From NCBI RefSeq assembly GCF_023639785.1, contig NZ_CP098325.1:2480001-2544000 (forward strand): a DNA stretch of 64,000 nucleotides. The letters run 5' to 3'. Shown here piece by piece: positions 4,764-23,500 of this stretch; position 1 is the first letter of the stretch, and each line of letters opens with the position of its first letter. The DNA is from Leclercia adecarboxylata (GTDB lineage: Bacteria; Pseudomonadota; Gammaproteobacteria; Enterobacterales; Enterobacteriaceae). The notes beneath the pieces are model-generated. The model was not told the DNA's origin, ran no database searches, and saw only the letters and a list, made by a program, of their open reading frames with translations. A program made the position numbers and the translations under genes.

Positions 4764-5633
4764 ATGAGCATAATCGATATTAACAGGCTGGAACTGTTTT
4801 TATGGCGTAAATATTTACCTTTGTTACAAAATAATAGCGCCGACAAGGGGAAACCTCACGACTATTTTTCCGTTTTCTTAAAAGATGCAGAAAATAATCG
4901 CTATATTCTGAAGGATGTACAAGGGGGCGATAACGCGCAGGATGCCGCTTTATCATTATCCTCGCTGTATCAGAGTGGCGATAGTGTAAAAAAACTTGTC
5001 GATATTCCTGAGATGGACGCCGAGATCGTCCATTACAAAAAAAATTACGCCCAGACCTATAAAAGCATATTCCTGTTTGCACTCGATCGTACGTTGAAGG
5101 TTATTACGCTCAAAACACAGTTTGCCCGCCTGAAAGGCAGAGTCGTGTCTGGCGCAAAGTCGGATACGGAGACCATCAGCCGCGACCGGTTTAATCTCCT
5201 CAGGCTGCTGGTCGCCAGCTATGTTAATCAGCGCCCCTCGCGCACCTCGTCCGGCTTTAGTCTGGATGAGGTGATCGCCCTGCTCTATGGCACGCTGTGG
5301 TATAAGCACATTAAAAATGAAGCGTTCAGACGAAAAATAAAACTGCTGATGGAGTCGCTGGTCATTAGCGGCGATTTAACCGAAAACCAGGGGGCCTATT
5401 ACGTTCAGGGACAGGCCATCACCACCCTCGTTGAGTATGAAAAAGAGGATCGCCGGGTTTCTCAGCAGCAGAAGATGCACAAAAATATGGTTCGCTTTAT
5501 GTTCGTTATCACCGTGGCAACCCTGCTCATTATTCTGGTGCTGCTTGGCATGGCCGGGATCGTCGATTTGGCGGCCATCTGGCAAAAGATACTGCAAATT
5601 AAACCGGTCAGGTTTATGCTGAAATTCATCTGA
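4764..5633 (+). CDS. Tail-anchored protein of unknown function
   Basis: A 289-residue protein that I do not recognise. Residues 1-245 are hydrophilic with no signal peptide. A single strongly hydrophobic segment lies near residues 246-270 (FMFVITVATLLIILVLLGMAGIV), followed by a short basic tail (LQIKPVRFMLKFI). That predicts a cytoplasmic domain anchored in the inner membrane by its C terminus. The stretch at about 170-225 (FSLDEVIALLYG ... LVISGDLTENQGAYYV) has a winged-helix-like pattern, but this is only a visual impression. It ends 18 bases before the LysR-type gene, so the two are very likely co-transcribed. Confidence 0.65.
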   Translation: MSIIDINRLELFLWRKYLPLLQNNSADKGKPHDYFSVFLKDAENNRYILKDVQGGDNAQDAALSLSSLYQSGDSVKKLVDIPEMDAEIVHYKKNYAQTYKSIFLFALDRTLKVITLKTQFARLKGRVVSGAKSDTETISRDRFNLLRLLVASYVNQRPSRTSSGFSLDEVIALLYGTLWYKHIKNEAFRRKIKLLMESLVISGDLTENQGAYYVQGQAITTLVEYEKEDRRVSQQQKMHKNMVRFMFVITVATLLIILVLLGMAGIVDLAAIWQKILQIKPVRFMLKFI

Positions 5634-5651
5634 AAACAGGGAGCAAGGCCA

Positions 5652-6542
5652 GTGGAATACAAGTTTGATATCAAAACCTTAAAGACCATTCACACCCTCT
5701 GCTCCTGCGGCAGCGTCATACAGACGGCGAAACTGTTGGGTGTCTCTCCCGGCGCCGTCAGCTACACCCTCAATAAAGCACGCAAAATCACCGGTTCGGC
5801 CCTCTTTTTTCGTTCCAGAACAGGGATGGTGCCGGGTAGTCTGGCAGAAGAGCTGAGTCAAAAATATCAAAAAATCGTCAGCGATCTGGATTTAGACAGT
5901 CTTCTCTCCGTGACGGAGAAAAACATCTTTACCGTCAGCTGCTATTCTCTCCTTGAACTGCTGCTCTCGACCGCATTAATCGCCAGCGACGACGCGTTAC
6001 CCCGCATCAACTTTTGCACCGCGATCGATAACGACGAGGCCAGAATCGCCCGGATACGTAATAAAGAGGTGGATATTGATATCGGTACCCGGCTGCCGGT
6101 CAATAACTCCATCATCCAGCTAAAATTTTTCAGCAGCCGTATCTCAGCCATCGTGCGACACGATCACCCCGTGATCGGTGAGACATTTTCCCTCTCCCAC
6201 TGGACGGAGCATCAGCATGCTGTCTGGTCCAGAGGCATGCATCTGATTAGCGATAATGTTGAACAAACCAACCGTTTTAATGCGCTGTTTCAAACGCGTA
6301 ACGTTGCCTTTGTCGCCAGCAGCACGCTTAATCTGGTGATGCTATGCGCCAACAGCGATCTTATTATTTTGTTACCAACGTTAATTGCAAAAAATATTCA
6401 GCCGCTGTTGCCAATAAAAGTGCTGGATGTTCCGCCGGAGCTGGATATGACGTATGAGTGTTATCTCCATTACCACCACTCGCTCGCCACTCACCCCATG
6501 CTGAGTAAATTAATTGCGCATTTTCAGGCGTCGGTGAACTAA
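5652..6542 (+). CDS. LysR-type transcriptional regulator (GTG start)
   Basis: A 296-residue protein. Residues 8-65 form an HTH of the LysR type (LKTIHTLCSCGSVIQTAKLL, then GVSPGAVSYTLNKARK). The rest follows the alternating alpha/beta pattern of the effector-binding domain. The N-terminal helix is a little divergent from textbook LysR proteins. GGGAG lies 8 bases before the GTG start. It is tightly linked to the tail-anchored protein upstream. The nearest targets are its own operon, with the palindrome at 4314-4329, and the outer-membrane gene cluster beyond 7281. The effector is unknown. Confidence 0.8.
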   Translation: MEYKFDIKTLKTIHTLCSCGSVIQTAKLLGVSPGAVSYTLNKARKITGSALFFRSRTGMVPGSLAEELSQKYQKIVSDLDLDSLLSVTEKNIFTVSCYSLLELLLSTALIASDDALPRINFCTAIDNDEARIARIRNKEVDIDIGTRLPVNNSIIQLKFFSSRISAIVRHDHPVIGETFSLSHWTEHQHAVWSRGMHLISDNVEQTNRFNALFQTRNVAFVASSTLNLVMLCANSDLIILLPTLIAKNIQPLLPIKVLDVPPELDMTYECYLHYHHSLATHPMLSKLIAHFQASVN

Positions 6543-6695
6543 AGCGTGCACTGAAAATGCCCAGTAATAACAGTGCAATTCAAAAACGTTAAATTCAGTA
6601 TTTAAATTCCTGTGCCCTTTTTAATTTTACAGGGCATAGCTTCCTCTATACCCTAGCCTCTTCAATTCCCTTACTCTCGATATTCCGATATTAAT

Positions 6696-7223
6696 ATGCA
6701 TACTGTTATTTTAAGTGATAATTATTATCTTTGTTCAGGCATTCATTGCTCAAGGATTAATGCATTATTTATTAGCGACGAAACAGACCTCGAACAGTTG
6801 ATTGAGGTAAGTGCGTTCCGGGATGTCATCATCGCAATCGCACACGACAACCTTCGCAATAAGGTTATTAAGCAGATCAGGCAAGAAAAATCCCGCTATA
6901 TTGTTTTACTGAACGAGATTGAACCGGACTGCTATATCAAAATAGATAACATCATTTATTCATCGTTGCGCTTTACCCTGCAACCGCTGCAGCATCTGAT
7001 CAGCTTTTTCCCTCACTTCCGGCAGCATCACTTTACGCGGCGGGAGTACGATGTGCTCAAGCTGGCTCATCTGGAAAATCATAAAATTGCCAAGCGCCTG
7101 AGCCTGTCGCAGAAAACCACCAGCACCTACCGGATCAAGATTCAGGAGAAGCTGAATATGCGTGCAAAAAATATGCTCGCGATGCACAGAGTGAAATCGG
7201 CCATCATCGATCAGGCATTCTGA
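6696..7223 (+). CDS. LuxR/GerE-type HTH regulator
   Basis: A 175-residue protein. The C-terminal third carries a GerE-type HTH: FTRREYDVLKLAHLENHKIA, then KRLSLSQKTTSTYRIKIQEK, at residues about 112-152. The N-terminal 100 residues have receiver-like alternation (VILSDNYYLCSGI, DVIIAIAHD, YIVLLNEI). They lack a clear phosphoacceptor aspartate, so it is probably a non-phosphorylated CsgD/FimZ-like regulator. No strong ribosome-binding site precedes the ATG. A gap of 153 AT-rich bases separates it from the LysR gene, so it may have its own promoter. It converges on the FadL-type gene at 7281. Confidence 0.8.
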   Translation: MHTVILSDNYYLCSGIHCSRINALFISDETDLEQLIEVSAFRDVIIAIAHDNLRNKVIKQIRQEKSRYIVLLNEIEPDCYIKIDNIIYSSLRFTLQPLQHLISFFPHFRQHHFTRREYDVLKLAHLENHKIAKRLSLSQKTTSTYRIKIQEKLNMRAKNMLAMHRVKSAIIDQAF

Positions 7224-7242
7224 TCCACCACCCCCACCCGCC

Positions 7243-7273
7243 CTGAAAACAGCCACCTCCATCAGGAAGTGGC
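7243..7273 (-). terminator. Terminator of the outer-membrane operon
   Basis: On the minus strand a 9-bp stem (GCCACTTCC / GGAGGTGGC, one G-U pair) with a TGAT loop is followed by TGTTTTC. It lies 8 bases after the stop of the FadL-type gene and also sits between two convergent genes. Confidence 0.55.
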
Positions 7274-7280
7274 CCGGACC

Positions 7281-8468
7281 TTAAAACTGATAGCTGTAGT
7301 TCAGGCTGGCAAACCACAGGTACGGATCGTCATAGCTGCCTTTCAGGATTGCCGGAGACTGTACCCGGGAAGACTGCATATGCAGGTATGAAACCGCAAA
7401 ACCGATATTGCTCTGCGGGGTGATTTGGTACTGCGCCCCGGTGGCGAAACGCCACTCATCCCCGGTCGGCAGGGACAGGGCCGCGTCGTTTTGCGATTCG
7501 TAAATAGTGCTGTCAAACGCGACCCCCGCATTGATACGCCACTGCTCTGTCGGGCGATACTGCACCCCCAGCGCCGTGTGCCAGGAGTCCTTGAGGCGGT
7601 TTTTCTTGTCGAGATCCTGTCCTACCACCGTAATTTGCGGGCTGCCGAACTGGCTCCAGTCCTGCCAGCCCAGATCGCCCATTACCGACCATCTCTGATT
7701 AATATCATGCACCAGGCTTAACATAATCTGCTGCGGCGCCCTGACCTGGGCCGATATCGGCAGATCGTATTCAACGTTCGGCAGGTTCGGGAAGCGAGCC
7801 TTGCCGTCAATATCAAAGTCATATTCAGTTTTACTGGTCCAGGTGATCCCCGCCCGGGTCTGGTCGGTGAGTTCCATCAGTAATCCCAGGCGGTAGCTCA
7901 TGGCCCAGTCGTGATCTTTTTCGGTTTCATCATCGCCATCAACGTTTCGGGTGAGGGAAAGAAGACCGTAGTTAACGTTAACCGAGCCGCCAACCGACAC
8001 CCGGTCGTTCAGCTTATACGCCAGCGAGGGGCTTAAGGTCAGGGCGACCATTGCGCTCTTCTTGAGAAGCCTGTCCCCCGCCCACTCACCGTAGTCGGTG
8101 GCCAGGCCGTAGTTGCCGTACAAGCCGATCCCGGCATACAGGTCATCATTAATTTTTTGGCTGTAAAACCCGCTGGCATTGGGAAACACGCTCATGATGT
8201 CGCCGGGGCTTTTTCGCCCGGACTCGTTGTCCAGGGTATAGGGAATTTTCCCGTCCATCATCTGCGCGCCGCCGGTAAACATATGGTCCGGCAGACGGGT
8301 CATCCCGGCCGGGTTGGTCACAATGGTGGACGCATCCTGGGCGCGCGCCGCCTGCCCCGCACCGGCGAGGGCCGTATCTTCGGTACCTATTTCATAAAAG
8401 TAGAGCCCACTTGCATGGGTTACCGGGGATAACATCAGACCAAGTCCAATCAGTGTAAGTTTTCTCAT
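7281..8468 (-). CDS. FadL/TodX-type outer-membrane transport protein
   Basis: A 395-residue OmpP1/FadL-family barrel. Members let hydrophobic molecules such as long-chain fatty acids or aromatics cross the outer membrane. A signal peptide ends near THA (residue 19). The mature N terminus SGLYFYEIGTEDTALAGAG and the NPAGMTRLPD motif are hallmarks of the N-terminal hatch. The C terminus ends in aromatic phenylalanine (LNYSYQF), as expected for BAM-inserted barrels. It is shorter than E. coli FadL (about 446) and is not that gene. It is the last gene of the six-gene minus-strand cluster, 23 bases after the DUF4056-like gene. Substrate unknown. Confidence 0.85.
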   Translation of the reverse strand: MRKLTLIGLGLMLSPVTHASGLYFYEIGTEDTALAGAGQAARAQDASTIVTNPAGMTRLPDHMFTGGAQMMDGKIPYTLDNESGRKSPGDIMSVFPNASGFYSQKINDDLYAGIGLYGNYGLATDYGEWAGDRLLKKSAMVALTLSPSLAYKLNDRVSVGGSVNVNYGLLSLTRNVDGDDETEKDHDWAMSYRLGLLMELTDQTRAGITWTSKTEYDFDIDGKARFPNLPNVEYDLPISAQVRAPQQIMLSLVHDINQRWSVMGDLGWQDWSQFGSPQITVVGQDLDKKNRLKDSWHTALGVQYRPTEQWRINAGVAFDSTIYESQNDAALSLPTGDEWRFATGAQYQITPQSNIGFAVSYLHMQSSRVQSPAILKGSYDDPYLWFASLNYSYQF

Positions 8469-8491
8469 TCGCCACCTGCCAGGTTACGTTA

Positions 8492-9598
8492 TTATTTCTG
8501 GAATCGTTCGAGCTGGGTTTTATCCGCCTCTCGCGCCCGGTCGGCCAGCCGCTGAAACTGCGACGGGCCATAAAATGCTTTTGGCACAGGCAGAGACTGC
8601 ATATCTGCGCCCGGGTAAATCTGTAGCTCCCCGAGACGGGAGAGCTGATACCCCACCACCACAGCGGGCATGGTGAGCCTGTAAGGCGCCGTTTTTTCAT
8701 ACGCCACCGGCGTGGGTAGCCGGTCAGAGTCGAGACTGTAGTTGCGTTTCAGCACCAGAAATCTATCCGGTACCCGGCGCTTGCTGTTCCACCAGTCGCC
8801 GTCCAGCTCGCGAAACTTTCTTTCGGTTTCCGTTTCGGTAGCGACCCCGAGCCGCAGCAGCGCATGACGCAGCGCGCTGTCCATGGCGGCGTTATAGCGT
8901 TCCACCGAGTCGGCTTTCCCCTGCAAAATGACCTCGATGGCCAGACGGGCCCCTAACAAATTGGAGTAGAGATCTTCCGGGGAAAACGCAGAGATTTCTT
9001 CAGAAAAGCCTGAAACTGACTGAAATCCATACCATTGGGCGATCTCGTGCCATTGGGCCAGCTCAAATGCCAGGCGCCCGGCCAGCCAGGCCGCCAGAGT
9101 GTAACGCTGGGGCATGGCGGAGGGCGGCGTAAAGGCCCGGAGCTGCACCCGGCGCACGCCCAGCTCTTCGCTATAGAAAAGACGCCCGTCGCGCCCCAGT
9201 TCGGGCAGGATGCGGGAGAAGAGGTAGAGCGTATTGTCCGCCGTGTCGCGGACGTGGGCGATATCGATAAACCCGCCGCGACGAGTGTAGATCAGGCCGT
9301 TTTTCTCCTCGCTCAAGCCGACAATGTTTTTCACGGCCCCCAGCGCGCTGTCGTTATAGTGATGGCGGCCCAGCGTATCCAGCGTCAGAACGTTGCCAAT
9401 CTGGTAAAAGGGAATGGGCACCCCCACCGCCCGGACGTGCAGATCGTAGCCAAACGCGCAGCAGGGGCGCAGCGATTCCGGAGGAGAAAGCTGGCTCACC
9501 ACGGGGTACGCCTTTCGCGCCTGCTTAAGGGGCAGCAGCGTCCCGTCGGCCCAGGCGGCTCCCGCCACTATCCATAACAGCAAAAACCACTTACCCAT
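8492..9598 (-). CDS. Periplasmic DUF4056-like protein
   Basis: A 368-residue protein with a signal peptide (MGKWFLLLWIVAGAAWA, cleavage about residue 18). The body matches what I recall of the DUF4056 family, with RPCCAFGYDLHV near the start and GLIYTRRGGFIDIAHVRDTADN centrally. The family has no assigned activity that I know. The RRGGFIDIAHVRD stretch and later WHEIAQWYGFQSV hold conserved-looking His, Asp and Glu, so a metal- or lipid-related enzyme is conceivable. It abuts the preceding gene with a TGA-ATG junction, indicating translational coupling with the D15-type barrel. The product is predicted periplasmic, between the channel and the outer-membrane barrels of the same operon. Confidence 0.65.
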   Translation of the reverse strand: MGKWFLLLWIVAGAAWADGTLLPLKQARKAYPVVSQLSPPESLRPCCAFGYDLHVRAVGVPIPFYQIGNVLTLDTLGRHHYNDSALGAVKNIVGLSEEKNGLIYTRRGGFIDIAHVRDTADNTLYLFSRILPELGRDGRLFYSEELGVRRVQLRAFTPPSAMPQRYTLAAWLAGRLAFELAQWHEIAQWYGFQSVSGFSEEISAFSPEDLYSNLLGARLAIEVILQGKADSVERYNAAMDSALRHALLRLGVATETETERKFRELDGDWWNSKRRVPDRFLVLKRNYSLDSDRLPTPVAYEKTAPYRLTMPAVVVGYQLSRLGELQIYPGADMQSLPVPKAFYGPSQFQRLADRAREADKTQLERFQK

Positions 9599-10729
9599 TC
9601 AGAACGCCTCCGCAACCTGAAAATAGAACCCCGCGCTCTCTTTGCCAAACCCCAGATCCAGCCGGACGTTCATCGCCGGTTTGACTTCAAACCGGTATCC
9701 CACCCCGGCGGTAGGCAACAGCGGATGATCGCCGAGAGCGTCGATATCGCTCCCCAGCGCCCCCGCCCCCAGCCAGAGCACATACCCGTGCCGCCAGTTC
9801 AGCTTGCGCCGGTACTCCACCTGCCCGCTCACCACGTCTTTGTCACGATAGCGCCCCTGGTAGTAACCGCGCATGCGACGGTCGTCCCCGGCCATCGAGA
9901 GCCTGTCCCAGGGCACATTGCCCCGCGTAAAACGCCCCCAGAGATCGAACGCCAGCACGCTCTTTTCGTTCAGCAGATGGAAATAATCGTATTGCACCTC
10001 GGTGGCGGTGAAATGGGTATCCGACCCTGCCGACGGATCAAACCAGCTGTACTCCACCTTCAACAGCTGCCCACGCTGGGGGCGTGTGACAACGTCACGT
10101 GAGTCATAGTTCAGGCTGACCGTAGCTCCCGAGGCAAGCGGCGACGTCTGCGCGTGGTAGCGGGTAAACACATCCCCCGGATAAGAATGATCGATATCCG
10201 CCTGCAGCGTGGAAAAATCCCAGCCGACACCGACATAGAGATCTTCTGCCACCTCGCGCATCACCACCGGATGGATCCGGAAGGCGTTGCTGGTGTAATC
10301 CTGTTCGTCCCCCTGGGCGGCATCGTAGCCAATCCCCCAGAAGCTAGTGGGTACCCGGTTCAACGAGCCGTCGACAAACAGGCGCCAGCGGTCGTCGGTA
10401 AAAAAGGTGTAGCTGCTTAAGCCCAGCCCCAGCGCGCCGCTGGCGCTGACGAACCCGGTAAAGGAGAGCGACGAGTTCTGGGTGGTGGCATCATTGGGGT
10501 CGACCCGGTAGATACCCGCCACCGCCATACCCAGCCCCAGCCTGAGCTCCGGGGTGTAAAACGGGCCGGGCAGCACGCTCCAGTTGATCCCCTTCAGCGG
10601 ATCGTACTGGTTATCGGCCCCCAGTTTCGCCAGAAAGGCATCCATTGATTTTTGGTCCAGCATCGCCGCCTCCGATGACCATGCCGTCAGCGTCAGGGAT
10701 AAAATCAGCGTCAGGCGTCCGGGTTTCAT
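9599..10729 (-). CDS. BamA/TamA (D15)-type outer-membrane barrel without POTRA domains
   Basis: A 376-residue protein with a signal peptide (cleavage about residue 21, SSEAA). The C-terminal part has the surface-antigen D15 pattern: GATVSLNYDSRDVVTRPQRG, the MAGDDRRMRGYYQGRYRDKD turn that corresponds to the conserved (V/I)RG-x-F/Y loop, and a final GFGKESAGFYFQVAEAF beta-signal ending in Phe. True BamA and TamA carry three to five POTRA domains; only about 40-60 residues precede the barrel here, so it cannot recruit substrates in the same way. The start codon overlaps the previous stop by one base (TGATG). Role unknown. Confidence 0.75.
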   Translation of the reverse strand: MKPGRLTLILSLTLTAWSSEAAMLDQKSMDAFLAKLGADNQYDPLKGINWSVLPGPFYTPELRLGLGMAVAGIYRVDPNDATTQNSSLSFTGFVSASGALGLGLSSYTFFTDDRWRLFVDGSLNRVPTSFWGIGYDAAQGDEQDYTSNAFRIHPVVMREVAEDLYVGVGWDFSTLQADIDHSYPGDVFTRYHAQTSPLASGATVSLNYDSRDVVTRPQRGQLLKVEYSWFDPSAGSDTHFTATEVQYDYFHLLNEKSVLAFDLWGRFTRGNVPWDRLSMAGDDRRMRGYYQGRYRDKDVVSGQVEYRRKLNWRHGYVLWLGAGALGSDIDALGDHPLLPTAGVGYRFEVKPAMNVRLDLGFGKESAGFYFQVAEAF

Positions 10730-11679
10730 CAGAAACGGTATTCCCCCGCCACGAAGAAGCTGTTGCGCTCATTGAAACCGAATTCCGTCAGCACGTTAAA
10801 GTGCGGGGTCATTTCAAACTGGGTGCCAATCAGCATATTCCACGGCGAGGTCAGCTTCTGCTTCACGTCAAACCGGCCGTCGTCGTTCTGGTTCACCGAG
10901 TTGATCAGGGGTTGCAGTGCGGCGGGCATATGCAGATCGGACAGGCTGCCGCGAAACTCCTGCTGCACGTCCTGGTACATCGTTCCTATCCATACGCCAA
11001 GGTGCGACTGTCCCGCGGGCCCCTGGAAGCTGAAGCGATAGCCCACCCGGGGCGAGACGGTCAGCGCTGAGATCTTGCCGTCCAGAATGTCAAAATCGGT
11101 GCGGGTGTAGTTGGTATCCACCAGCGCAAACCAGTTTTGATAGCCGCCGGCCAGGGTGATCCCGGTGCCCCAGGTGGTACCCTTGAAGTCGAGAATAAAG
11201 TCGATATCCTGCAGCTCACCGCTCTGATAGAGCTGATGCACGGACGAGGCGATAATCCGGTCTACGCCGGTATAGCGCGCGGGATCGGCGTCCACCGAGA
11301 CGTTGGATACCGACGAGCCGCGGGTGTGCCCCACCAGGCCATAAATATTCAGAAACGGAAACACCCACATATCCAGACGCAGGTTTTCGGTTTTGCTCTG
11401 CTCCCGCGTATGCCCGGCATCAATATTGAACATATCGGTTGGGATGGGATGATTACCCAGCGCCAGTCCGGAAAAGCCAATGCTGTCGACATCGATGTTC
11501 TGCCGCATATTCATATAGCTGAGATTAACGCCAAACGGCAGCGGAATGGCGTATCCCCGCGCCCTTGCCTCATCGCCCCAGATGGGAAACGTCCGCGCGT
11601 CCGTGTCAGCCGCCGAGGCGGCGCCTGAGACCAGCAGGAACGGCACCATCACCTTAGTCCATCGCATATCCATCCTCAT
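10729..11679 (-). CDS. Predicted outer-membrane beta-barrel protein
   Basis: A 316-residue protein with a signal peptide ending near ASA (residue 23). It has amphipathic beta-strand periodicity and a C terminus NSFFVAGEYRF ending in Phe, consistent with a barrel. Internal strands such as TWGTGITLAGGYQNWFALVDT and VGYRFSFQG fit. I recognise no named family. The first ATG follows the preceding stop directly (TAA-ATG). A second ATG four codons later, MRWTKVMVPF, has GAGG at proper spacing and may be the real start. Third gene of the cluster. Confidence 0.65.
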   Translation of the reverse strand: MRMDMRWTKVMVPFLLVSGAASAADTDARTFPIWGDEARARGYAIPLPFGVNLSYMNMRQNIDVDSIGFSGLALGNHPIPTDMFNIDAGHTREQSKTENLRLDMWVFPFLNIYGLVGHTRGSSVSNVSVDADPARYTGVDRIIASSVHQLYQSGELQDIDFILDFKGTTWGTGITLAGGYQNWFALVDTNYTRTDFDILDGKISALTVSPRVGYRFSFQGPAGQSHLGVWIGTMYQDVQQEFRGSLSDLHMPAALQPLINSVNQNDDGRFDVKQKLTSPWNMLIGTQFEMTPHFNVLTEFGFNERNSFFVAGEYRF

Positions 11680-12795
11680 TTACAGGCCGGAGCCCACGTT
11701 GAAATAGACCGCCTGCTCGTGATCGCTGAAGGCCACATCCACTCCGGTATGCAACCCGTACTCCCGGGCGATCAGATAGCGAAACCCGGTGCCCCAGGCC
11801 ACTTCTGCGCTAGTGTAGAGATCGCTGGCGCTATCTTCGGCGCTACCGGCCCCGACAAAGCCCTGCACAACCCAGCGCGGCGTCACCTGCCAGCCCAGCT
11901 GAGCCTGCACGGTGCTGACATCCTCGCCCTGATAGCGGTAGCTGGAGATCCCCCGCAGCTTGATATAGGGCCGGGCCATCGGCGGCAGGTGTTGATCCTC
12001 CTGCGAGAGCATCTGGTAGTTCCCGGCGAGGGACAGCGTCCAGGTGGGGTTCAGCGGCAGGAAAACCTTGCCGTCCAGGGTCAGCAGATCGTAGCGGTAA
12101 TCCCCCCCCAGAAAATGGCCGTAAAACTGGTACTCACCGCTGAGCGCGACCCCTTGTCCCGGCCAGAAGAAGTTATCGGTGGTGTCATACTCTGCCACCA
12201 GGCCGAGCGACGAGGAGGTACTGTCATCCCCCAGCACCCGCTGCCACAGGCGATCGATAAGCGGATTGTTTTTGGCGGAGATATCCGCCCTGAACCACGA
12301 CTGGGATGCCCCGACAAAGACCGGCGAATCTCCGACGCGGAACAGCAGCTTGTGCAGGCCGCCGTAGCCCTGGGTTTCGGTGTTGATGGCTTTATTGCGG
12401 CTAAAGCCAGCGACATCCCCGGAATAGATATCCAGATTGATATCGGCATAGCCCCCGGCAACGAGATAGCGGATATGGTCCTCCTGCCAGGTCCGTCGGT
12501 GGCCGCCGCCGACAAACCAGGTGCCGTTTTCGGTGCCACCTCCGCCGAATGCCGTCATCGCCGGGGGGATAAATCGCCCGTTAGCCTGGGTGCCTTTCCC
12601 GTGCAAAAACAGGCCAAACAGACCGCCGCCATAGCCGATGGCGGGCTCGGTGATCACCACCGGGATCGGCAGAAATCCGTAAGGCTTATCCTGCAGGTTA
12701 TGGCTCATATCCAGCATGCCATCTTCAGGATCGATCAGGCCAGCCGACGTGGCTTGCCCGCAACAGAGTGCAGTCAGCAGCAAAAGCCGCTTCAT
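11680..12795 (-). CDS. BamA/TamA-family outer-membrane protein, barrel only
   Basis: A 371-residue protein with a short signal peptide (MKRLLLLTALCCGQATSA). The mature start runs into the PIPVVITEPAIGYGGGLFG motif, typical of stand-alone Omp85-like barrels. Later it has the DTTDNFFWPGQGVALSGEYQF strand and a RGISSYRYQGEDV loop equivalent to the conserved RG-x-x-x-YR element. There is no POTRA domain. It ends in Leu rather than Phe (FNVGSGL), a small deviation from the usual beta-signal. The start overlaps the stop of the MscS-type gene by four bases (ATGA), so the two are translationally coupled. Confidence 0.75.
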   Translation of the reverse strand: MKRLLLLTALCCGQATSAGLIDPEDGMLDMSHNLQDKPYGFLPIPVVITEPAIGYGGGLFGLFLHGKGTQANGRFIPPAMTAFGGGGTENGTWFVGGGHRRTWQEDHIRYLVAGGYADINLDIYSGDVAGFSRNKAINTETQGYGGLHKLLFRVGDSPVFVGASQSWFRADISAKNNPLIDRLWQRVLGDDSTSSSLGLVAEYDTTDNFFWPGQGVALSGEYQFYGHFLGGDYRYDLLTLDGKVFLPLNPTWTLSLAGNYQMLSQEDQHLPPMARPYIKLRGISSYRYQGEDVSTVQAQLGWQVTPRWVVQGFVGAGSAEDSASDLYTSAEVAWGTGFRYLIAREYGLHTGVDVAFSDHEQAVYFNVGSGL

Positions 12796-14408
12796 CCTTT
12801 ATCCCCGGCGGGAGCCGACGCCGGCGCCGGGTACCAGTTCTCTTTCGCCACCATCACCGCCCCCTCAGGCTGCATCACGAAGTTCGGCGACATGATCTGC
12901 ACGTTGAACTCGTTGAACACGTCCTGAATATTGCTGTGCAGTTCGTTGCGGGCCGCCGCCAGCGACTGCCCCGGCAGGAGCCGGACCTGTAACTCGTAGG
13001 CGATGTACCAGTCCATCAGGCTCAGCTGGCGTACCAGCGGCGGGTGCGTGAGATCGACGCCCTGCGCCCGCTTGGCGGCCAGCTCCAGCATGGCGTGAAC
13101 CTGCCGCCAGGGGGTGTCGTACCCGATGGTGACGCCCACGGTCAGGTTCACCCCGCCGTCCGGGTTCTGGACGCTGAGATTGGTGATTTTGCCGCTCACC
13201 ACTACCGCGTTGGGTACCGTCACCACGTAGTTTTCCCGGGTGATAATCTTGGTGGCAAGCATGCCGATCTCGCTGACCTGCCCCTCGTTATCCGCCACCC
13301 GAATCACATCCCCTTTGCGCAGCGCCCGGGAGTAGATCAGCACCAGCCCGCTCATGGCGTGGTTCATCACCCCCGCCGACCCGAGGGTGAGCATTAAGCC
13401 GAAGAAGACGCTGATCCCCTTAAACGCCAGCGAGTTGGCCCCGGGCAGGAAAGGATACGCCGCAGAGAGGGCAAACAGCCACACCACCACCGAGATCAGC
13501 TTGCGGGTGGCGCCGACGGTCTCCGGGTGGATCCCCGGCAGCTGCAGGCGCCCCGCCTCCACCTGATTCAGCACCATTTTCAGCAGCTTGAGGATAAACG
13601 CGGTGATAAGAAAAATGAGCATTACGATCAACAGCCCCGGCAGAGCCGAGACAATCGACAGGGCGATCTGCCGCAGGGCGCGGATCGACCAGTCGCCGAG
13701 AGAGGTCCCCCAGACCCGCGTCCAGGGGAAAAGGCTGAAGACCCAGCTCAGCCAGGCATAGAACGCCACGATAGCCAGTAAGATCATCATCAGGGCATAG
13801 AGGCGCGTTTCGATGGCGCCAATAAAGCGCCGCCAGCGGTGCGGGATCAGGCTGCGGTTTTCGAGGATCCGCCGACCATAAAAACGCCGCACCCAGCGCC
13901 ACGAGCGGTATGCCCCGTAACAGAAGAGCATAAAGACCAGCAATCCCGCCGCCGCTTTCACCGTGGAGAGCGCCAGCCAGCCGGAATCATACTGATCGCG
14001 CAGGGCCATACGCTGGGCTTCCATGCGGGCCAGCACCCGCTGGGCGGCCTGATCCAGGGTTAAATCATCCCCTTCGTCCAGATCCGCCTGAGCCAGCAGC
14101 ATCACCGGTTTGCCGTTCATGACGATCAGCCTTCCCTGCTGGTTGTAGCGGGTCACCGGCACGATTCTGAGCGGCTCCCGCACGTCCTCCTGGGTAAAGT
14201 TGCGCAGCGTATTGCGGATACGTAAGACACGTTCTTCGGGGGTGGTCAGGCCAAACTTCGCCTGCAGCATGACGATGGGTTGATGGAAGATATAGAGAGT
14301 GCGGGCGCGCTCCTGCTCAGTAGGTGCCTGGCGGGGTTCTGCTGCCTGTGTCATAAAAGCCAGACCGGAGAGAAAACACGTTAAAAAGACGAGCAGGATC
14401 CTGTTCAT
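12792..14408 (-). CDS. MscS-family mechanosensitive channel
   Basis: About 538 residues from the ATG at 14408, which gives a good signal peptide (MNRILLVFLTCFLSGLAFMT, cleavage before AEPRQ); an in-frame ATG further upstream is less likely. A periplasmic domain of about 130 residues follows. Then come membrane segments near 150, 205, 260 and 310, and the pore-lining helix plus beta domain (FGLMLTLGSAGVMNHAMSGL and GDVIRVADNEGQVSEIGM). The MscS signature VPNAVVVSGKITNLS lies just after. Such channels open on membrane tension. E. coli MscS has 286 residues, so this belongs to the extended branch. It is the first gene of the coupled outer-membrane cluster, 107 bases after the autotransporter stop. 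Confidence 0.88.
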   Translation of the reverse strand: MNRILLVFLTCFLSGLAFMTQAAEPRQAPTEQERARTLYIFHQPIVMLQAKFGLTTPEERVLRIRNTLRNFTQEDVREPLRIVPVTRYNQQGRLIVMNGKPVMLLAQADLDEGDDLTLDQAAQRVLARMEAQRMALRDQYDSGWLALSTVKAAAGLLVFMLFCYGAYRSWRWVRRFYGRRILENRSLIPHRWRRFIGAIETRLYALMMILLAIVAFYAWLSWVFSLFPWTRVWGTSLGDWSIRALRQIALSIVSALPGLLIVMLIFLITAFILKLLKMVLNQVEAGRLQLPGIHPETVGATRKLISVVVWLFALSAAYPFLPGANSLAFKGISVFFGLMLTLGSAGVMNHAMSGLVLIYSRALRKGDVIRVADNEGQVSEIGMLATKIITRENYVVTVPNAVVVSGKITNLSVQNPDGGVNLTVGVTIGYDTPWRQVHAMLELAAKRAQGVDLTHPPLVRQLSLMDWYIAYELQVRLLPGQSLAAARNELHSNIQDVFNEFNVQIMSPNFVMQPEGAVMVAKENWYPAPASAPAGDKG

Positions 14409-14455
14409 TTCCACCACCCGAAACGCGCAATTATCGTTATATTTCAGACTGCCCA

Positions 14456-14500
14456 CGAAACGGCTGGTCTGCACTCATTTGAGCGTAGACCAGCGTTTCG
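14456..14500 (-). other. Hairpin between autotransporter and channel genes
   Basis: Arms CGAAACG-G-CTGGTCT and AGACCAG-CGTTTCG pair over 14 bp with one bulge, around a 16-base loop, 16 bases after the autotransporter stop. No U-run follows on the minus strand, so it is not a classical terminator. It may be a processing or stability element separating a giant upstream message from the downstream cluster. Confidence 0.5.
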
Positions 14501-14515
14501 CTTCTGCAATACCAC

Positions 14516-17500
14516 TCAGAAACGGATCTTCATCCCCAGCGACGCCGAAATATCGGCATCCAGGCTGGTCTTACCGCTGTTGTCCCAGGTTTTGCCCACT
14601 TCGGTGTAGGCCTGAACGTCATCGGTCACCATCCAGGTGGCCCCCACTGCCGCCTCGGTGGCGGCGAACTGCTGGTTGGCCTTCAGGGTGGTTTTGCCGT
14701 GACTGTTGGCGGTATTGCGGTAAGTCACCTCATCCTGGCCGTCGGTCAGCTCCTGCCAGTAGTTCACCCGCACGTAGGGCTTCACTATGCCGTGGTTGGT
14801 GTCGTACTCGGCGGTGAGACGCGCCCCCAGACGGCCAATCACCGCGCTGTCGGCGTTGACGCTGACCCGGGTTTTCGCGGCATCGTTGAGGGTGACGTCG
14901 TCGAAGTCGCTCCACTGCCAGATCAGCTGGGCCTGAGGCTCAAATGCCCAGCCGGTATCGCCGAAGTACCAGGGTTTACCCACCTCCACGGAGGCGGTCA
15001 CCGAGTTGCCGTCCGGGTGGTAGGTTTCATGGTCGGTCATGTTTTTCAGATCGACCGAGTGGTAGCCATACTGCAGCACGTTATCGACGTAGAAGCCGTC
15101 GGTGTCGGTCCAGGTGGCATAGCCGCCAAGGTAGGTGGAGAAGGTGGAGTTATACGCCGCCCCGCCGCTCATGCCGGTATTGCCGTCGATGGCGCTGTCG
15201 ATATCCATAAAGGTGGTGTACATCCCGGCACGCCACTTATCGTCCTGCCACAGATCCAGCCCCATCTGCATGCCGTTGTACTGGCTGTGGCTGGTGCTGC
15301 CTGTGGCATCATCCAGTTTCTGGTCGACGGTTTTGGTCAGGTAGCGCGCCCAGAAACGCCCCTCCTGATCCGCAGGGTTGTCCGCCCGGTAAGGGCGTTC
15401 ATCCCCCTGGCGCAGGTGCAGGGTGCCCAGCACAAACAGATCCGCCTGACGGATGATGGAAGGTAAAGTGTCGAAGCCCGGCACGTCCGGACGATAGCCG
15501 GCACGCAGGAACCAGTCTTCGCCCGCGCCGTTGAGATCCCCCGCAAACAGCTGGTACTCCCAGGCCCCGGCGGTCAGATAGTCGGCCCCGAGAGTAAAGG
15601 CGTCTTTGGTGGTTTGCGCCGTGGTGACGCCGCCGTTGATGGCATCAACAACCAGAATGCCGTCCCCTTCGGTTGGCTCCCCAAGCCGGCTGACGTCAAT
15701 GTCCAGCAGCGTGGTGCCGCTGGCGGTTCCGCCGTCGATCACCAGATGGTCCGCCACGCCCGGGCTGTTCTGCTGAGCGGCAATTTTCAGCGTGCCGTCG
15801 AGGCCCACATAGTCGCCCTGCACCGTTAGCGTCGAGCCCACGTTACCGCCGCGCAGGTTCACCGTACCCTGGTTTACCAGGTCCGCCACGGTCTGGTTAT
15901 GCCCGCCAGTATCGAGGGTACCGTTACTGCTGACGATGTGGCTGGAACCGCTGCTGAAACGGTTGATGCCTCCGGCCAGCAGGGTGCCGTTTTCCACCAG
16001 CGTATAGCCCGTCCATCGGTTGAGTCCGTTCAGGACGGTGGTGCCTTCACCGCGCTGAATAAAATCACCGGTTCCGGTGATGATACCGTTGAGATCCAGG
16101 GTGTTGGCGCGATTGACCACCAGGGTGGCGAGGTTAACCACGTTCCCCAGCACGCTGCCGCTGTTGCCGCCATTCCCCAGTTGCAGGGTGCCGTTACGCA
16201 CGGTGGTTTCGCCCTGGAAAGTGCTGTCCTGCGTAAGCGTCAGGGTGCCGTCCCCCTGTTTCGCCAGATTGCCGCTGCCGCCCACCGCCGTGAGCAGCGA
16301 GACATCATTCCCGTTGGTGTCGATCGCCCCGCCATCTCCGGCAAGCGTTACGGCGCGGGCGGTATCGAACGCGGCGCCGTAGCGCAGCGTACCGCCGCTG
16401 AGGGTGATGCCGGTGTCCGCGGCACCGAGGTTCGGATCGCCGGAGACCTGTAATACCCCGTCACTGATAGTGGTGCCGCCCTGATAGGTATTGCTGCCGT
16501 TCAGCACCAGGGTGCCAAGATCGGTTTTATTCAGCCCGCCGCTGCCGGCAATTTGTGAGTTGAAGGTGGCGGTATACCCCGCCCCGCGCACGGTGCCATC
16601 CCCCACGCGCAGAACGGTGTCGGCAGTATCGGTGGTGATGACGCCGTCGTTAATGACGTAGCCGTCGGTCATAAACTGCGCGCCGCTGATGGTCACCGCC
16701 CCCAGGCTGTTATCCACCGTGACGGTGCCGGACTCGCCGCCAAACACCGCGAACGCGCCATCGCTGAACGGGGTGTTAAACGCCCCCTCCGGGTTGGTGC
16801 GATCGGTGGTCCAGTTATCGTTGCCGTTGCTGTTCTGCCAGACGCCGTTGCCGCCATCAATGACATCGTTATTTTTCAGGGAACCGCCCGCGCCGCCAAA
16901 GCCGTCCCAGAAGCGCATGGTGTACCCGGTGCGGTTCACCAGGTTGACCTGGCCGTCGATTGAGGTCTGAACATAGAGATCGTCTGCCGCCGCGGGCGCG
17001 GTGCCGATCTCCAGGATGTTGTTGGTGAGCGTGCCGCTGTAGTCGATCACGCGATAGACGCCGACGTCAAAGTTCCCGCCCGGGGTCTGGGTGATATTGA
17101 GCCTGCCGTCGAGGTTCAGATCGCCGTTCACCGTCAGCAGATCGTTCAGCGCCCCGCCCGGGGTGCCGGACTGGCCGAACTGGAAATCAAGCTGGGCGTT
17201 TTGCGCCAGCGTCAGGCTGCCCATCGTCAGCTCGCCCACGCTGTCGAGCGCCGCGCCCGGCGTCAGATGGCCGTCATCCGCCACGCTGACGCTGCCGCCC
17301 AGGGTGCCCGCCCCGCCGAGGGTCGCCCCGGCATCGACCGTCGCTGCCCCGGTGGCCGCACTCTGATCGCCGTTAACCAGCAACACCCCCTGCTGAACGG
17401 CGGTCGCGCCGGTATAGCTGTTATCGCCGGATAAGGTCAGGGTGCCGCCGCCGGTTTTCACCAGCCCGCCGCCGCTGCCGCTGATGATCCCGCTGATGGT

Positions 17501-20500
17501 GTCGTTCAGGCCAAGATTACCTTCGGTCAGGGTGGCCGCGCCCAGACTGACGTTCCCGGCCCCGGAGAGGGACCCGACAGCGGTATTGCCTGCGGCGTCC
17601 GCCAGCGTCACGTTGCCGCCCGCCAGGTTACTGATGCGGGCCGACGCCGCCTGGGCATTGCCCGCAAACGCCACCGTGCCGCTGTTGGTGGTCAGGCTGG
17701 TTCCGGCGTCAGCGCTGCCGGAGAGCTGCATCAGGGAAGCGGCATCGACGTTAAACCTTGCCGCGCCACCGCTGCTGGTGTCGGTCAGTTCAAGCGTACC
17801 GCTGGTCAGGTTGACGGTGCTGCCGTCCGCCGTCGCCGTATCGTTAAAGGCCAGGGTGGCGTTGTTGACGTTGAAGAGATGCGCCTCTGCCGCGCTGGCG
17901 TTGTTGATGTTCACACGGGCCGCGTCGATGAGGGTCACCGTGCTGTCGGCCCGGCCCAGCGCGCCGGCGGCGTTAGCATTGACGGTCAGGGTGCCGGTGC
18001 CATTTTTCCCGGTAACGGTGGTATTACCCTGATAGGTATTGGCTACGTTGAGATCCAGCACCCCATCGCCCGTTCCGGCGGCGCTGTCTTTCACCGCCAG
18101 CGGGCCGTCGCCGCCAATCCCCCCCTGGGAGGCGAAGGTATTGCCGTAAACATCAAAGGTGCCGCCCGCCACGCCATCGAGGATAAACAAGCGGTCGGTG
18201 GTGTAATCGGCCCCGGTCTGGAAGGTTGCGCCGTTCTTGAGGAACACAAAGGTCCCGGCATCGCCGAGGCTGGTGTCTTTAGAAACCTGTAAGGTGCCGT
18301 TCCAGACTTCGGTCCCGCCGCTGTACTGGTTGTCGCCGTTAAGGATCAGGCGGCCCGGATCGGTTTTCAGCAGGCGGATCGCCCCGTCGGCATCGCTGTC
18401 CTGCACCAGGTCTACGTTGATAGTGGTATTCACATCCGCACCGGCCGCGCCGTCGCCGACGCGAATCGCGAAGTAGCTGTCGCCGTGGGTTCCGCCTACC
18501 GCGTCGTAGCTGTTATCCGGCGTCACCACGCCCGCAATACCGGTCGCCACCATGTGCAGTTGGGAATCCTGGTTGATCAGATCCGGCGTCAGCAGATAGC
18601 CGTCGGTCGTAAACTGCATCCCGCTGGTGATGACATCGCCAAAGGCGTTGCTGACCAGGACGGTATCCGCCTCGCCCTGGAAGACGGCAAAGGCGCGCTG
18701 GGACCAGGGGGCGTTGCCCACCCCGTTGCTCTGGGTCCAGTTGTTACTGGTGCCCGCGATGAGGGCATTCCAGGAGCCAAAACCGCCGTCGACCACGCCG
18801 TTGCCGGAGGTACCATCCCCGTGGTTGGTGGCGTTGAGATCGCCGTCCCAGAACTGAAGCTGGTTAGAAGGCACCACAAAGTCCAGCACGAGGTTAACCT
18901 GATTCGCGATGTTAGTCTGAATGGCATACTGATTGGCATCGTTCGGCGGTAACGAGCCGATGTCCATGGTGTTGTTGATCAGTGCTCCGCCGTAGTTAAA
19001 CAGACGGTAGACCCCCGGCAGGAAGCTGCCCCCCGCGGTGAGCGCCACGTTCACCACCCCGTCGAGGGTGAGATCGCCCGCCACCGTCACCAGATCGTTT
19101 AACGCCCCGCCCGGCGTGTAGACCTCTCCCAGCTGGAACTGGCTGTCGGTATCGCTCGCCAGGGTCAGGTCGCCGTTGATGGTCAGTTCACCGGTGCCAT
19201 TGCCCCGGGCATCATCCCCCGGACGCAGCACGGTGCCCGTTTCAAAGACCACGTCCCCGCCCAGGGTGCCGTAGCCGCCGAGGGTGGTGCCGGACTGCAC
19301 CGTCGTCAAGCCGGTACCGGTCTGCACGCCGTTGATCAGCAGCGTACCCTGCCCGACGGTGGTGGTTCCGGCATAGCTGTTATTGCCGCCCAGGCGCGTC
19401 ACACCGCTGCCCAACTGGCGGAACGCCCCGCTGCCGGAGATAACGCCGTTTAACGCCACATCATCTGAACGATTGACGGTTAACAGCCCGTTGTCGGTGA
19501 TATTGGTGGTGGTAGATAAACTCCCGGTGGTGCCGCCGTTACCCAGCGCCAGCTCTGAATCCGTACCGATCAGCGTATTGCCGGTGTAGCTGTTTTCCCC
19601 CAGCAGGATAGTGTCGCCGCCGCCGATGCGCGCCATACCGCCGTCGCCGGAGATGACGCCGCTGTAGGTCTGAACCCCTGCGCCATCAAACGACACCAGG
19701 CTATTGCCGCCCACAGTGGCAATGTTGTACTGCCGAATGGTTGCCTCGCCGCTGGTGACGGCGTTATCCCCGGAGCGCAGCGTCGCCCCGTTGTTGACGT
19801 TGATCTGCCCCGCCCCGGAGAGCGCCAGGTCGTTCACCACGCGGATATCAGCAGGATCGCCGTCGAGGGTCAGGGTGCTCCAGCCGGTGCCAATGTTAGT
19901 GCCCGTTGCCAGATCGTCCGCCGCCAGGGATCCGATATTCGCCGAACCCGCGCTGCTGTGGGTATTGTTAAAGGTCAGAAGACTGTTGGTGCCCCCTTCG
20001 CTCAGGACATGGCTCACGCGGGCCAGGCTCACATCGCCAAAGGTGGCGCTGTCGTTGCCGTCGGCCCCGGTAAAGGTCACCCCACCCGCGAACTCGCCTG
20101 CGGTAAAGCCAAACTGGTCGCTGCCGCTGCCGAGGGTGATCTCGCCCTGGGTGGTTCCGGCGTTGATGTTCATCACGTCGTTGCCGCTGCCGGTCAGCAC
20201 CACCTGTGCGGTGTCGCTGGCGGCACGCAGCGTGCCGGTGTTGACGAGGGTGTTACTGGCCGTTCCCGAGGCATCAATGACCGTCGCATTTTCGCTTTGG
20301 CTGGTGATAAGCCCGGTATTGGTGATGGTGCGGCTGGCGGCCGTGCCGTTCAGGGCAATCAGCGACTGGGCGTTAGTGGTGCTGGTGGAGGTGATGTTGC
20401 CGCTGTTGCTGAATGCCGGGGTGTTCTGCGCCAGGATGGTGCTGCCGGTGTCGCTGCTGGTGGTGATGACCCCGCTGTTGCTCAGGCTGCTGGCACTGGT

Positions 20501-23500
20501 CGCCTCAATGGCCGCCCCGGCGGTCGTGCCCATAGTGATGGAGGTGCCCGAGTTCACGTTGCCGGTGGTCCGCGCCAGCACCCCGGTGCTGTCGGTGCCG
20601 TTACCGTTGATGGTGTAGCCGGTGCCGATGGTCAGATCGCCGGAGGTTTGCGAGCCGTCCGCCTGCATAAAGGCAAACCCGCTGCCGCTGCCCGCCACGT
20701 TCAGGACGTTGCCGGTGCCTTCCGCCGTAAAGGTCACCGCCGTGCGGATAGCCGGGCCGTCGCCGGAATTAATGGTCACGTTATTCAGATTGATATTACT
20801 GGAGCTGGCGTTGTTGTTAATGCCCGCCCCGGTTCCTGACACATCGATAGTGGTGTTGCTGGCGTTGAAGGAGGAGGCCCCGGTGCTGTCGATACGCACC
20901 CCGTCCGCGCCGTTGCTGGCGGTGATCTGGTTCCCGGTGCCGTTAACGGTAAGCGTCGCGCCGTTGCCCGCCAGCTGCACCGCCGCCAGGCCGCCGTTGG
21001 CGGTGACGGTGCCGAGCTGGCTGACCGTTGCGCCCGCCCCCTGCACCCGCAGGCCGATGTTACCGCTGCCTGCGGCCCCGGATACGCTGATGGCCCCGCT
21101 GTTATTCAGCAGCCCGGCATTCTGAATATCCACGCCAATATTGTTGGTCCCGGCAACGCTGACCGGGGCGGTCACCGTCGCCTGGCCGTTGTTATGCAGA
21201 ACGATACCGGTGCTGCTGTTCCCCAGCAGATCGATAGCCGCACCCGCATTCAGGGTAAGGTTGCCGAGGTAGCCAACGTTGTACCCCACAATCCCTGTCT
21301 GCCCGGCCGCCGAGGTGATGACCGCATCGGAAGTAACGAGGGTTTCCCGCGGTTCGGGATCGATAGTGGCGTCGATGTTGTAGTTGCGCCCGTCCACCAG
21401 CACGGCGGTCGTGTTATCCCCCGTCAGGTTGATGGCCCCGTCGGTGATGGCCCCATTGGCCCCGCCGGTCACTTTCACCCCAACGGCACCCGCCCCGGAG
21501 ACGGTAATGGTGGCATCCCCGGTCGTTAACTGGGTGGCCACATCATCCGCCGGATCGGCATTGTTCAGATCGTCCACGCCGTTGGCGAATACCCCCGTCG
21601 AACCCTGGCCTGAGACGTTCAAATCGTAGCTGCTGCCGGTCCCGGTATTGCCGTTAAAGATCGCCCCATGATCGACAACGAAAAGAATGGACTGGGTCTG
21701 GGCGCTGTCGGTGATGGTGGCGTTGGTGATATTGATGCTGGAGCCCTGGCCCCAGGCGTAATAGCCGATTTGCTGGGAATTCTGGAACGACAGGGAGGCA
21801 TCCGCCCCGATATCGATCGTGGCATTGCCACGGGCGTGGACGCCGATGGCCCCGGCGGATAACAGACTGATATCAGAGTCGAGCGTCACCTGCGCCGCGT
21901 TGTTGTTTAACCCTTCGGCATAGACGGCGTAATTACGGTAGGTGTAAGGCTGGTTGTCAGTGCCGCCGGTATCTCCCGCGCTGCCCACCACAATCCCGCT
22001 GCTGGCGGTGGAGTTCAATGACGCATTGGCGGTTTGCGCCAGGATATTCAGGGCGATGTTGTTGTCACCGTCGACAAAAATATTGCCGTTGTTGGTCACC
22101 ACCCCGCCGTTGTCTTTGACGTACATGCCGTAGTTGGCGGCGGCAGAAATTTCGCCGGTCGACGTTGGCGTCAGGGTGCCCAGCACGTTCAGCTGGCCGT
22201 TGTTGGTCGCCGCCTCGGTGCCGCCTTCAATCAGCATCGCTGCCGCATTGCGGGTGCCGGAGAGCAGCGTGATGGTGCCCTCGGCGGTGTTCTCCATGTT
22301 GCCCTTGCCGGTGGTGTACATCCCGGCGCTTAACGCCCCACTGCCCACCAGATCCACCGCCTCCGGGGTGTCGCCTGAGATAACGGGGGTTGCGCCAAGG
22401 TAAATCTGCCCGGCGTTGGTCACGGTGCCCATTGAGTCGCTGAGAATCGCATACCCGGCCGCCCGGCCATCGGGATTACGGCTGTTACCCGTCAGGGTAA
22501 CAGTGCCGGTATTGCTGAGGGTACTGTTGCCGCCAACGGCCATCCCCCATGCGGTACGGGAGGCGTTATCCGTTACCGCAACATTGATGTAACCCTGGTT
22601 GGTGAGCGTGGCGTTCGTTAAGCCGGCCATCCCCACGCTACCGGCGTTGCTCACATTCTGGTTAACGCCGTCTTTCTCGAGGAATAACCCGGCGTTGATC
22701 ACCCCGGTATTGAGCGCCGTGCCGTAGCTGGCCAGCATCGCCACCGAGGTGGGGCTGCTGCCGCTGCTGCGCCAGGCGTTGATGGTGCCGTTGTTGACGA
22801 TCGCCCCGCCGTCGAAGGCCTCCATCACCGCTGAGGCCCCATCCACGGCGAGGCTCGCGTCGGCGGTGACGGTCCCGGTTGCGCCTGCCCCGTTGGCATA
22901 GATCACCCGCAAATCGCCGGTGCCGAGGGTGGCGTTGTTGTTGTGCGCCAGCCTGTCTTCCCAGACGTTATAGGTGAGATTGATTTGGGTGCTTTGCGCC
23001 TGGCTGAGTAAGCCGGTGATGATGCTGTTATAGACGGTCTGCGCCTCCACCGCGGAGTCAATCACTTCGCCATTCACCTCAGCACCGGCCGTCAGCCAGT
23101 ACTGAACTTGCGGACTCCCGGCATAGGCGCCCTGTCCGGTGAGGTAGTTGTTTACATCGGCGATATCATCGGAGGAGGTAATGTTAAATTCGCGGGTACC
23201 CACCTGAATCACCCGCCCGCCGGGCAATTCGGTGTAGTTCGGTAAGGTCAGGGTGTAGTTATACTGGGTACTCTGCGCCCCCACGCTCTGACTCTGCGCG
23301 CTGACCACCGCCGCAGGGCGGAAATGAATATAGTTATCAGACAGCCAGTTCACCGCGCTGGTGGCGGTTCCTCCCGCATCCGCCCGGGCCAGAGTGGTGT
23401 TTTTGGTCAGGAGATCGAGAGTGTTTTCCGCGGCGGCAATGGGCGTTGCACCGTTGGTATCCGCCCCGACGTTAATGTTCGCCGTGCCGCCATCATTCCC

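Follow-up and report, generated by a model that had tools for sequence, protein, structure and literature searches.

In the stretch of Leclercia adecarboxylata DNA analysed here (NZ_CP098325.1, positions 2,480,001 to 2,544,000; 64,000 nucleotides, called the window below), six minus-strand open reading frames (ORFs), F6 to F1, run from position 14408 down to 7281. They encode an MscS-type channel (F6), two Omp85-type barrels without POTRA domains (F5 and F3), another outer-membrane barrel (F4), a DUF4056 protein (F2) and a FadL/TodX-type barrel (F1). We found that the conserved unit of this locus is F4-F3-F2 and that MscS and FadL are separable from it. We propose, with a probability of about 0.5, that the locus centres on an outer-membrane platform that remodels lipids with exchangeable enzymes and resembles a split form of the lipase-barrel fusion PlpD. 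In this platform the F4 barrel, with one POTRA-less Omp85 barrel or two (F3, F5), would anchor F2, a separately encoded lipid enzyme of the periplasm, and supply it with substrate. The gene order, the protein families, the conserved residues and the modular neighbourhoods were observed directly; from these we infer the substrate, the activity, the complex and every biochemical step of the platform.

The original prediction had treated the six genes as one coupled system. The neighbourhood survey, which had been set beforehand as the test of that claim, decided against it: all six genes stood together in just 7/80 named loci, and an obligate six-gene system is therefore rejected. From 268 relatives the best 80 were kept, 12 of which come from Photorhabdus; the 80 are skewed to close relatives, and some end at contig ends. 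A contiguous F4-F3-F2 was present in 71 of the 80, in 39 of them as a bare triad, and in another five F5 replaced F3 to give F5-F4-F2. Thus, F4 with at least one POTRA-less Omp85 occurred in 76/80. F5 was found in 34, MscS in 18 and a downstream FadL gene in 8 of the loci; F3 occurred without F5 in 42, F5 without F3 in 5, and both together in 29. Either POTRA-less Omp85 may serve. In L105 a 42-residue F3 remnant remains between F4 and F2, and for this reason we read that locus as one in which F3 was lost beside an intact F5.

The same association was seen across genomes, in samples that overlap one another (147 relatives; 369 and 284 genomes over the class; 398 over the phylum). DUF4056 was present in 21/147 relatives, in 4/369 genomes over the class and in 15/398 over the phylum. 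F4 was present in 20 of the 147 relatives, comprising 18 of the 21 that were DUF4056-positive and 2 of the 126 that were negative (Fisher p 4e-18); co-occurrence of F4 and DUF4056 exceeds chance. F4, F3 and F2 were adjacent in 17 of the 19 relatives that had a strong DUF4056 match. These 17 include the genome of the window and G087, whose copy of the trio has a split DUF4056 frame.

The flanking genes vary among lineages when judged by eye. On two IncF-type plasmids of E. coli the triad has transposase genes next to it, and a Serratia plasmid carries it as well; relatives of F3 were found on 24 plasmid records, four of which were examined. The triad behaves as a portable cassette. MscS follows a different pattern. 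Orthologues of F6 (E below 1e-60) were present in 25/147 relatives, and the triad stood beside MscS in five of these 25. One more relative, G053, carries autotransporter-MscS-F5-FadL and has lost the triad except for a 35-residue DUF4056 remnant. In the remaining 19, no F2-F5 gene stood beside MscS, and MscS was rejected as a core part on this ground. A distant-genome search, made with the F5-F6 stretch as its query, gave no E. coli DNA match.

The prediction that F2 acts on lipids comes from its family and its residues. The lipocone superfamily includes Pfam DUF4056 under the family name CapCone-DUF4056, and active lipocones are argued to remove or swap phosphate-linked lipid head groups (main text of eLife 2025, PMC12419801). 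The CapCone signatures described there are a Gly six positions before the His of H2 together with an xD motif preceding that His, and S/GxxSxx before the Asp of H4, often with an aromatic residue before that Ser and with an Asn at +4 after a small residue. F2 carries the first as G109-F-I-D112-I-A-H115 and the second as S203-A-F-S206-P-E-D209-L-Y-S212-N213. Among 59 DUF4056 sequences, G109, D112, H115, H184, E185, S203 and D209 were invariant, and S206, S212, N213 and G216 were conserved in at least 90%. All of these residues were also invariant in a divergent 18-row alignment, in which nine rows lay outside the 59 and two were just 29-31% identical to F2; F205 is replaced by Tyr in some divergent members. 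Thus, F2 is a DUF4056 protein with the residues of the CapCone group, and we predict that it is a lipid-head-group enzyme. Its AlphaFold2 model (pLDDT 83.5, pTM 0.87) has long helices at 113-133, 162-189, 209-225 and 232-249. Two variants of the family were seen along the way. In a distant genome (L065, 8355-9986), DUF4056 is fused to peptidoglycan-binding and OmpA domains. A 310-aa Klebsiella pneumoniae variant (P0102) is probably inactive because the stretch bearing the H2 active-site His is missing; intact DUF4056 copies also exist.

F3 and F5 both exceed the Omp85 cut-off. Pfam searches found no POTRA match in F5 at E up to 1 or in F3 at E up to 5, and no patatin match in either. In an alignment of 16 F3 sequences, the place of POTRA is taken by a conserved N-terminal segment of about 35 residues, and R287-G288-Y289 is invariant in 16/16; we take this RGY to be the RGF/Y motif of loop 6 of Omp85 proteins. 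We know of no tested function for a POTRA-less Omp85. F4 had no family above the Pfam cut-off. An OmpT-like protease was considered for F4 and rejected: the likeness is one of barrel class at 4-6% identity, in a comparison that did not extend to catalytic residues.

A close known design is that of PlpD, in which an Omp85 barrel bears a phospholipase domain in the periplasm; loss of PlpD raises phospholipids (PMC11116518). The likeness lies in the coupling of an Omp85 barrel to a periplasmic lipid enzyme. The difference is that the patatin domain of PlpD is joined via POTRA to its barrel, whereas here the genes are separate, POTRA is missing and the enzyme is of the lipocone type; the patatin-POTRA-Omp85 architecture of PL-Omp85 proteins is found in neither F3 nor F5. 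The 'noNterm' Omp85 proteins likewise have a barrel without an N-terminal domain, but the passages of PMC4104836 that describe them give no gene partners, whereas F3 has a conserved N-terminal segment and constant neighbours. As for lipocones, PMC12419801 links the sister families YfiM-Griddle/DUF2279 and CapCone-2 to outer-membrane barrels or hydrolases, and its main-text mentions of DUF4056 and CapCone give neither a DUF4056 gene context nor an F4-F3-F2 core. Among the matches listed from the openly licensed literature, supplements excluded, no title or abstract opening dealt with this gene set or with a modular machine of this kind.

Based on these observations, we propose a model for how the platform could work. 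F2, exported by Sec, would dock at the periplasmic face of F3/F4, perhaps via the conserved N-terminal segment of F3. The Omp85 barrel would then thin or gate the membrane locally, and a phospholipid head group, or a polyprenyl-linked one, would enter the pocket of F2. There, H115, the H184/E185 pair and D209 would form a centre that removes or swaps the phosphate-linked head group. The products would be handed on; the recipient in other lineages may be a lipoprotein alpha/beta-hydrolase, a patatin or a phospholipase D (PLD)-like partner. In Leclercia, Silvania and related genera, the cassette is enlarged by MscS, the second Omp85, the FadL-type barrel and an autotransporter, and these added genes may detect stress in the envelope, import hydrophobic products or profit from the altered surface. 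The adjustment and cleaning of outer-membrane lipids is only partly understood, and the core gives POTRA-less Omp85 proteins a testable role. If the model is true, DUF4056, which many Enterobacterales and some of their plasmids carry, gains a function. The core is conserved and portable, it couples POTRA-less barrels to a predicted lipid-head-group enzyme, and the operon is tractable in the laboratory.

The idea of exchangeable enzymes comes from F4-type barrels in loci without DUF4056. A wider F4 alignment found the family in 22/398 genomes over the phylum and in 4/284 over the class. We collected 23 stretches with F4 but without DUF4056 (L270-L284, L291-L298) and dropped L292, in which no F4 ORF was called, which left 22. 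Lipid hydrolases stood within two ORFs of F4 in 6 of the 22: patatin in L271 and L298, PLD-like genes in L280, L282, L297 and L298, carboxylesterase in L282 and L298, and an alpha/beta-hydrolase in L278. A gene of the alpha/beta-hydrolase fold within two ORFs of F4 in L270, on the opposite strand, looks peptidase-like by eye and was not counted. A POTRA-less-type Omp85 stood within two ORFs of F4 in 7/22 (L273, L274, L278, L283, L284, L294, L298), and an F5-type Omp85 lay three ORFs away in L280 and L297. F5-type barrels had PLD or patatin genes in their vicinity in L280, L297 and L298, and L298 unites an F5-type Omp85, patatin, F4, carboxylesterase and PLD. Among DUF4056 loci, L041, L044, L060 and L062 have an alpha/beta-hydrolase with a lipobox, recognized by eye, that adjoins DUF4056.

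Omp85 was the commonest Pfam family (6) among the 88 genes within two ORFs of F4, together with PLD (4), patatin (2) and carboxylesterase (2). Among the 111 farther genes of the same stretches, Omp85 occurred three times (two of the three are the F5-type genes in L280 and L297), and the 25 families listed there include none of these hydrolase families. Phmmer searches with queries from the near set found no patatin, PLD, carboxylesterase or alpha/beta-hydrolase gene among these 111. Thus, patatin, PLD and carboxylesterase genes numbered 8/88 near F4 and 0/111 far from it (Fisher p 0.001). A broader reading, possible though doubtful, is that F4 represents a family of 'hub' barrels that, together with POTRA-less Omp85 proteins, make up a platform into which different periplasmic lipid enzymes can be plugged (lipocone, alpha/beta-hydrolase, patatin, PLD and carboxylesterase), in Enterobacterales and also in more distant proteobacteria, for example Cupriavidus. 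Its odds are lowered because Omp85 showed no significant excess near F4 in the loci without DUF4056 (6/88 near versus 3/111 far, p 0.19). Two observations on these barrels stand apart. The F4-type barrels of L278-L282, 491-586 aa long, bear extra N-terminal regions; the four proteins that were scanned (all but that of L281) showed no Pfam family at E up to 0.01. Genes of MMPL-family transporters lie within two ORFs of F4-type genes in L272 and L291.

Several results weigh against a lipid-remodelling platform, among them the Omp85 count just given. For F2, Foldseek and VIA-align searches with the AlphaFold2 model gave no clear solved relative, and a PDB profile search gave nothing convincing (best E 0.088). 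Comparison by hhalign of two DUF4056 alignments with nine YfiM sequences, all shallow alignments, gave probabilities of 2.0 and 0.6, confined to the signal-peptide region. The putative lipocone membership of F2 thus rests on Pfam, the motifs and PMC12419801, and not on an independent fold match, and in the openly licensed literature, supplements excluded, we came across no relevant experiment and no activity reported for any DUF4056 protein. In the neighbourhoods, 11 of the 22 loci without DUF4056 had neither an Omp85 nor a lipid hydrolase close to F4. The hydrolase excess is carried by a few related lineages (L280/L297, L282/L298) and rests on queries from the near set, and it would weaken to p = 0.06 if, conservatively, the far count were 3. 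F4-F3 pairs occurred without DUF4056 in the 11 kb examined on a Cupriavidus plasmid and in L273 and L274, which represent one further genus; the F3 gene of L274 was found by tblastn and not by the ORF caller. Conversely, DUF4056 was alone in 4/80 named loci. One of these lone F2 genes, in Klebsiella pneumoniae (L088), is probably the result of secondary loss, because the sequence directly ahead of it matches the final 15 residues of F4 (E 0.025).

The protein distances must be read with similar care. Mantel r was 0.94 for F2-F3, 0.88 for F2-F4 and 0.80 for F3-F4 (0/500 permutations). The distances of F5 and MscS tracked the others about equally (r 0.72 to 0.93; 0.88 and 0.93, respectively, versus DUF4056). 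As these accessory genes correlate as well, the test singles out no core, and with a high r for every pair compared it was rejected as proof of a complex. It shows joint inheritance of whichever genes are present.

The original prediction had left two routes open: a trans-envelope path for lipids or hydrophobic compounds, and a dedicated assembly line for an outer-membrane product. We favour the lipid function because F2 carries the CapCone residues and F4-type barrels elsewhere adjoin lipid hydrolases; a single coupled unit of all six genes is not supported. The assembly line we consider rather unlikely. In this explanation, POTRA-less Omp85 proteins insert or fold F4, and here also the autotransporter and the FadL-type barrel, with DUF4056 as a periplasmic helper and lipid chemistry as a secondary matter. 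It agrees with the statement that the Omp85 proteins studied before PlpD all act in outer-membrane protein assembly or translocation (PMC11116518), with the role of this kind that Heinz and Lithgow suggested for 'noNterm' Omp85 (PMC4104836), and with the F4-F3 pairs that lack DUF4056. An autotransporter does head the operon in 7/80 loci, but it is missing from the other 73, some of which are cut by contig ends. Additionally, F3 and F5 have no POTRA to receive clients, the genome has two more, larger Omp85 proteins that are BamA- and TamA-like by size, and an assembly line leaves the lipid hydrolases near F4 unexplained.

It is improbable that the locus is a path for envelope stress and hydrophobic solutes, in which MscS would sense tension, FadL and the other barrels would move hydrophobic compounds and DUF4056 would modify the cargo. 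MscS and FadL belong to one unit here, in 3/19 relatives they stand next to each other with the core missing, and in L277 (5805-7953), a stretch without DUF4056, an MscS gene lies about 80 bases after an F4-type gene. However, MscS has neither FadL nor the core beside it in 16 of those 19 relatives, and the counts of both genes in the DUF4056 loci are low (just 18/80 for MscS and 8/80 for downstream FadL).

We regard a conflict module as very improbable. In it, DUF4056 would act as a toxin-like effector that attacks lipids and is let out by the Omp85 barrel, in the manner of sister lipocones in polymorphic toxins. In its favour, CapCone-1/2 form the tips of toxins, CapCone-2 occurs in predatory bacteria as a partner of hydrolases or outer-membrane barrels (PMC12419801, main text), a Salmonella DUF4056 gene appears in a list of candidate type VI secretion effectors (PMC11669294, in that list) and the triad stands beside transposases on the two E. 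coli plasmids, but the PlpD enzyme domain remains in the periplasm (PMC11116518, on PlpD), no recurrent immunity-gene-like neighbour was seen across lineages by eye, without a dedicated immunity-protein search, and the six proteins gave no PADLOC match, which also led us to reject a defence system.

The layout of the operon came out largely as the original prediction had it (Table 1). The ORF coordinates agree with six minus-strand genes that are joined by an ATGA overlap (F6/F5, 12792-12795), TAA-ATG (F5/F4, 11680/11679), TGATG (F4/F3, at 10729) and TGA-ATG (F3/F2, 9599/9598), followed by a 23-base gap between F2 and F1 (8469-8491). Pfam confirms the product families that had been named (MscS, two POTRA-less Omp85 proteins, an outer-membrane protein, DUF4056 and a FadL-type barrel), and all six N-termini look like signal peptides by eye, as had been claimed.

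Table 1. Genes and predicted RNA hairpins of the locus, in window coordinates.
Feature	Positions	Strand	Score or form	Place in the locus
AT, giant autotransporter, about 3228 aa from the ESPR start	14516..24202	-	ESPR, PATR repeats, C-terminal autotransporter barrel	
AT-MscS intergenic hairpin, with a conserved ATAACGATAATT-like block that precedes the MscS start	14409..14515	-	-42.2 kcal/mol, z -3.55	
F6, MscS-type channel, 538 aa, periplasmic N-terminal region	12792..14408	-	PF00924 55 bits, PF21082 29 bits (MscS beta and C-terminal domains both above Pfam cut-offs)	accessory
F5, Omp85-type barrel without POTRA, 371 aa	11680..12795	-	PF01103 36.8 bits (cut-off 24)	second Omp85
F4, outer-membrane barrel	10729..11679	-	modelled with 11 strands	constant partner ('hub') of the core
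F3, Omp85-type barrel without POTRA, 376 aa	9599..10729	-	PF01103 47.9 bits (cut-off 24)	
F2, DUF4056 = CapCone lipocone-type periplasmic protein, 368 aa	8492..9598	-	PF13265 424 bits (cut-off 23.6)	
F1, FadL/TodX-type barrel, 395 aa	7281..8468	-	PF03349 206 bits (cut-off 29.7)	accessory, travels with AT
Hairpin 3' of the FadL gene	7237..7284	-	-21.0 kcal/mol	

F6, F1 and the autotransporter are clear members of the MscS, FadL/TodX and type Va autotransporter families, yet they are accessory in this locus. Judged by its scores, F1 is FadL-like and not FadL itself, as it falls under the NCBIfam FadL cut-off (NF007988, 112.6 bits versus 585); a second FadL-type protein in the 4.74 Mb host genome is 29% identical to F1. 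The BAM component BamG was rejected as an identity for F1 (NF053685, 39.4 bits versus a cut-off of 250).

The autotransporter gene, which was absent from the operon as first described, ends 107 bases before the MscS gene on the same strand. Its last 350 residues match PF03797 at 136 bits and its ESPR matches PF13018 at 45.5 bits, in keeping with type Va. It immediately precedes MscS in six of the seven loci in which it heads the operon, and FadL is present in all seven. It is possible that the autotransporter is an upstream member of the transcription unit in the Leclercia-type lineage. The hairpin between it and MscS, with the ATAACGATAATT-like block 3' of it, is at the same place in the other aligned autotransporter-MscS loci and altered in Silvania. 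The alignment holds nine sequences and leaves out the longer gap of L082, where there is no MscS. Covariation is weak, with 1/13 predicted pairs changed on both sides, and an established RNA element is therefore rejected. The hairpin may act as a terminator or attenuator and so part the autotransporter from the six-gene unit, and a terminator plus a promoter of the unit's own is possible at 14409-14515. Of the terminator-like hairpin predicted at the end of the operon, the structure itself is present downstream of FadL and a simple terminator scan did not list it; it is probably the end of the unit.

Three plus-strand regulator genes at 4764-7223 converge on the operon end. They encode a 289-aa protein without a Pfam family, whose C-terminus is hydrophobic by eye, a LysR-type regulator and a LuxR-type regulator. 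Relatives of all three adjoin the same operon in another Leclercia locus (L070), and relatives of the LuxR-type regulator adjoin core-less MscS genes in L201, L211 and L213. A record titled Chryseobacterium sp. 18061 (L093) holds the complete enterobacterial seven-gene arrangement; either its title is wrong or the assembly is mixed, probably. Last, the two cassettes of one genome (G061) are each partial and together complementary: F5-F4-F2 (L029) and F4-F3 (L286).

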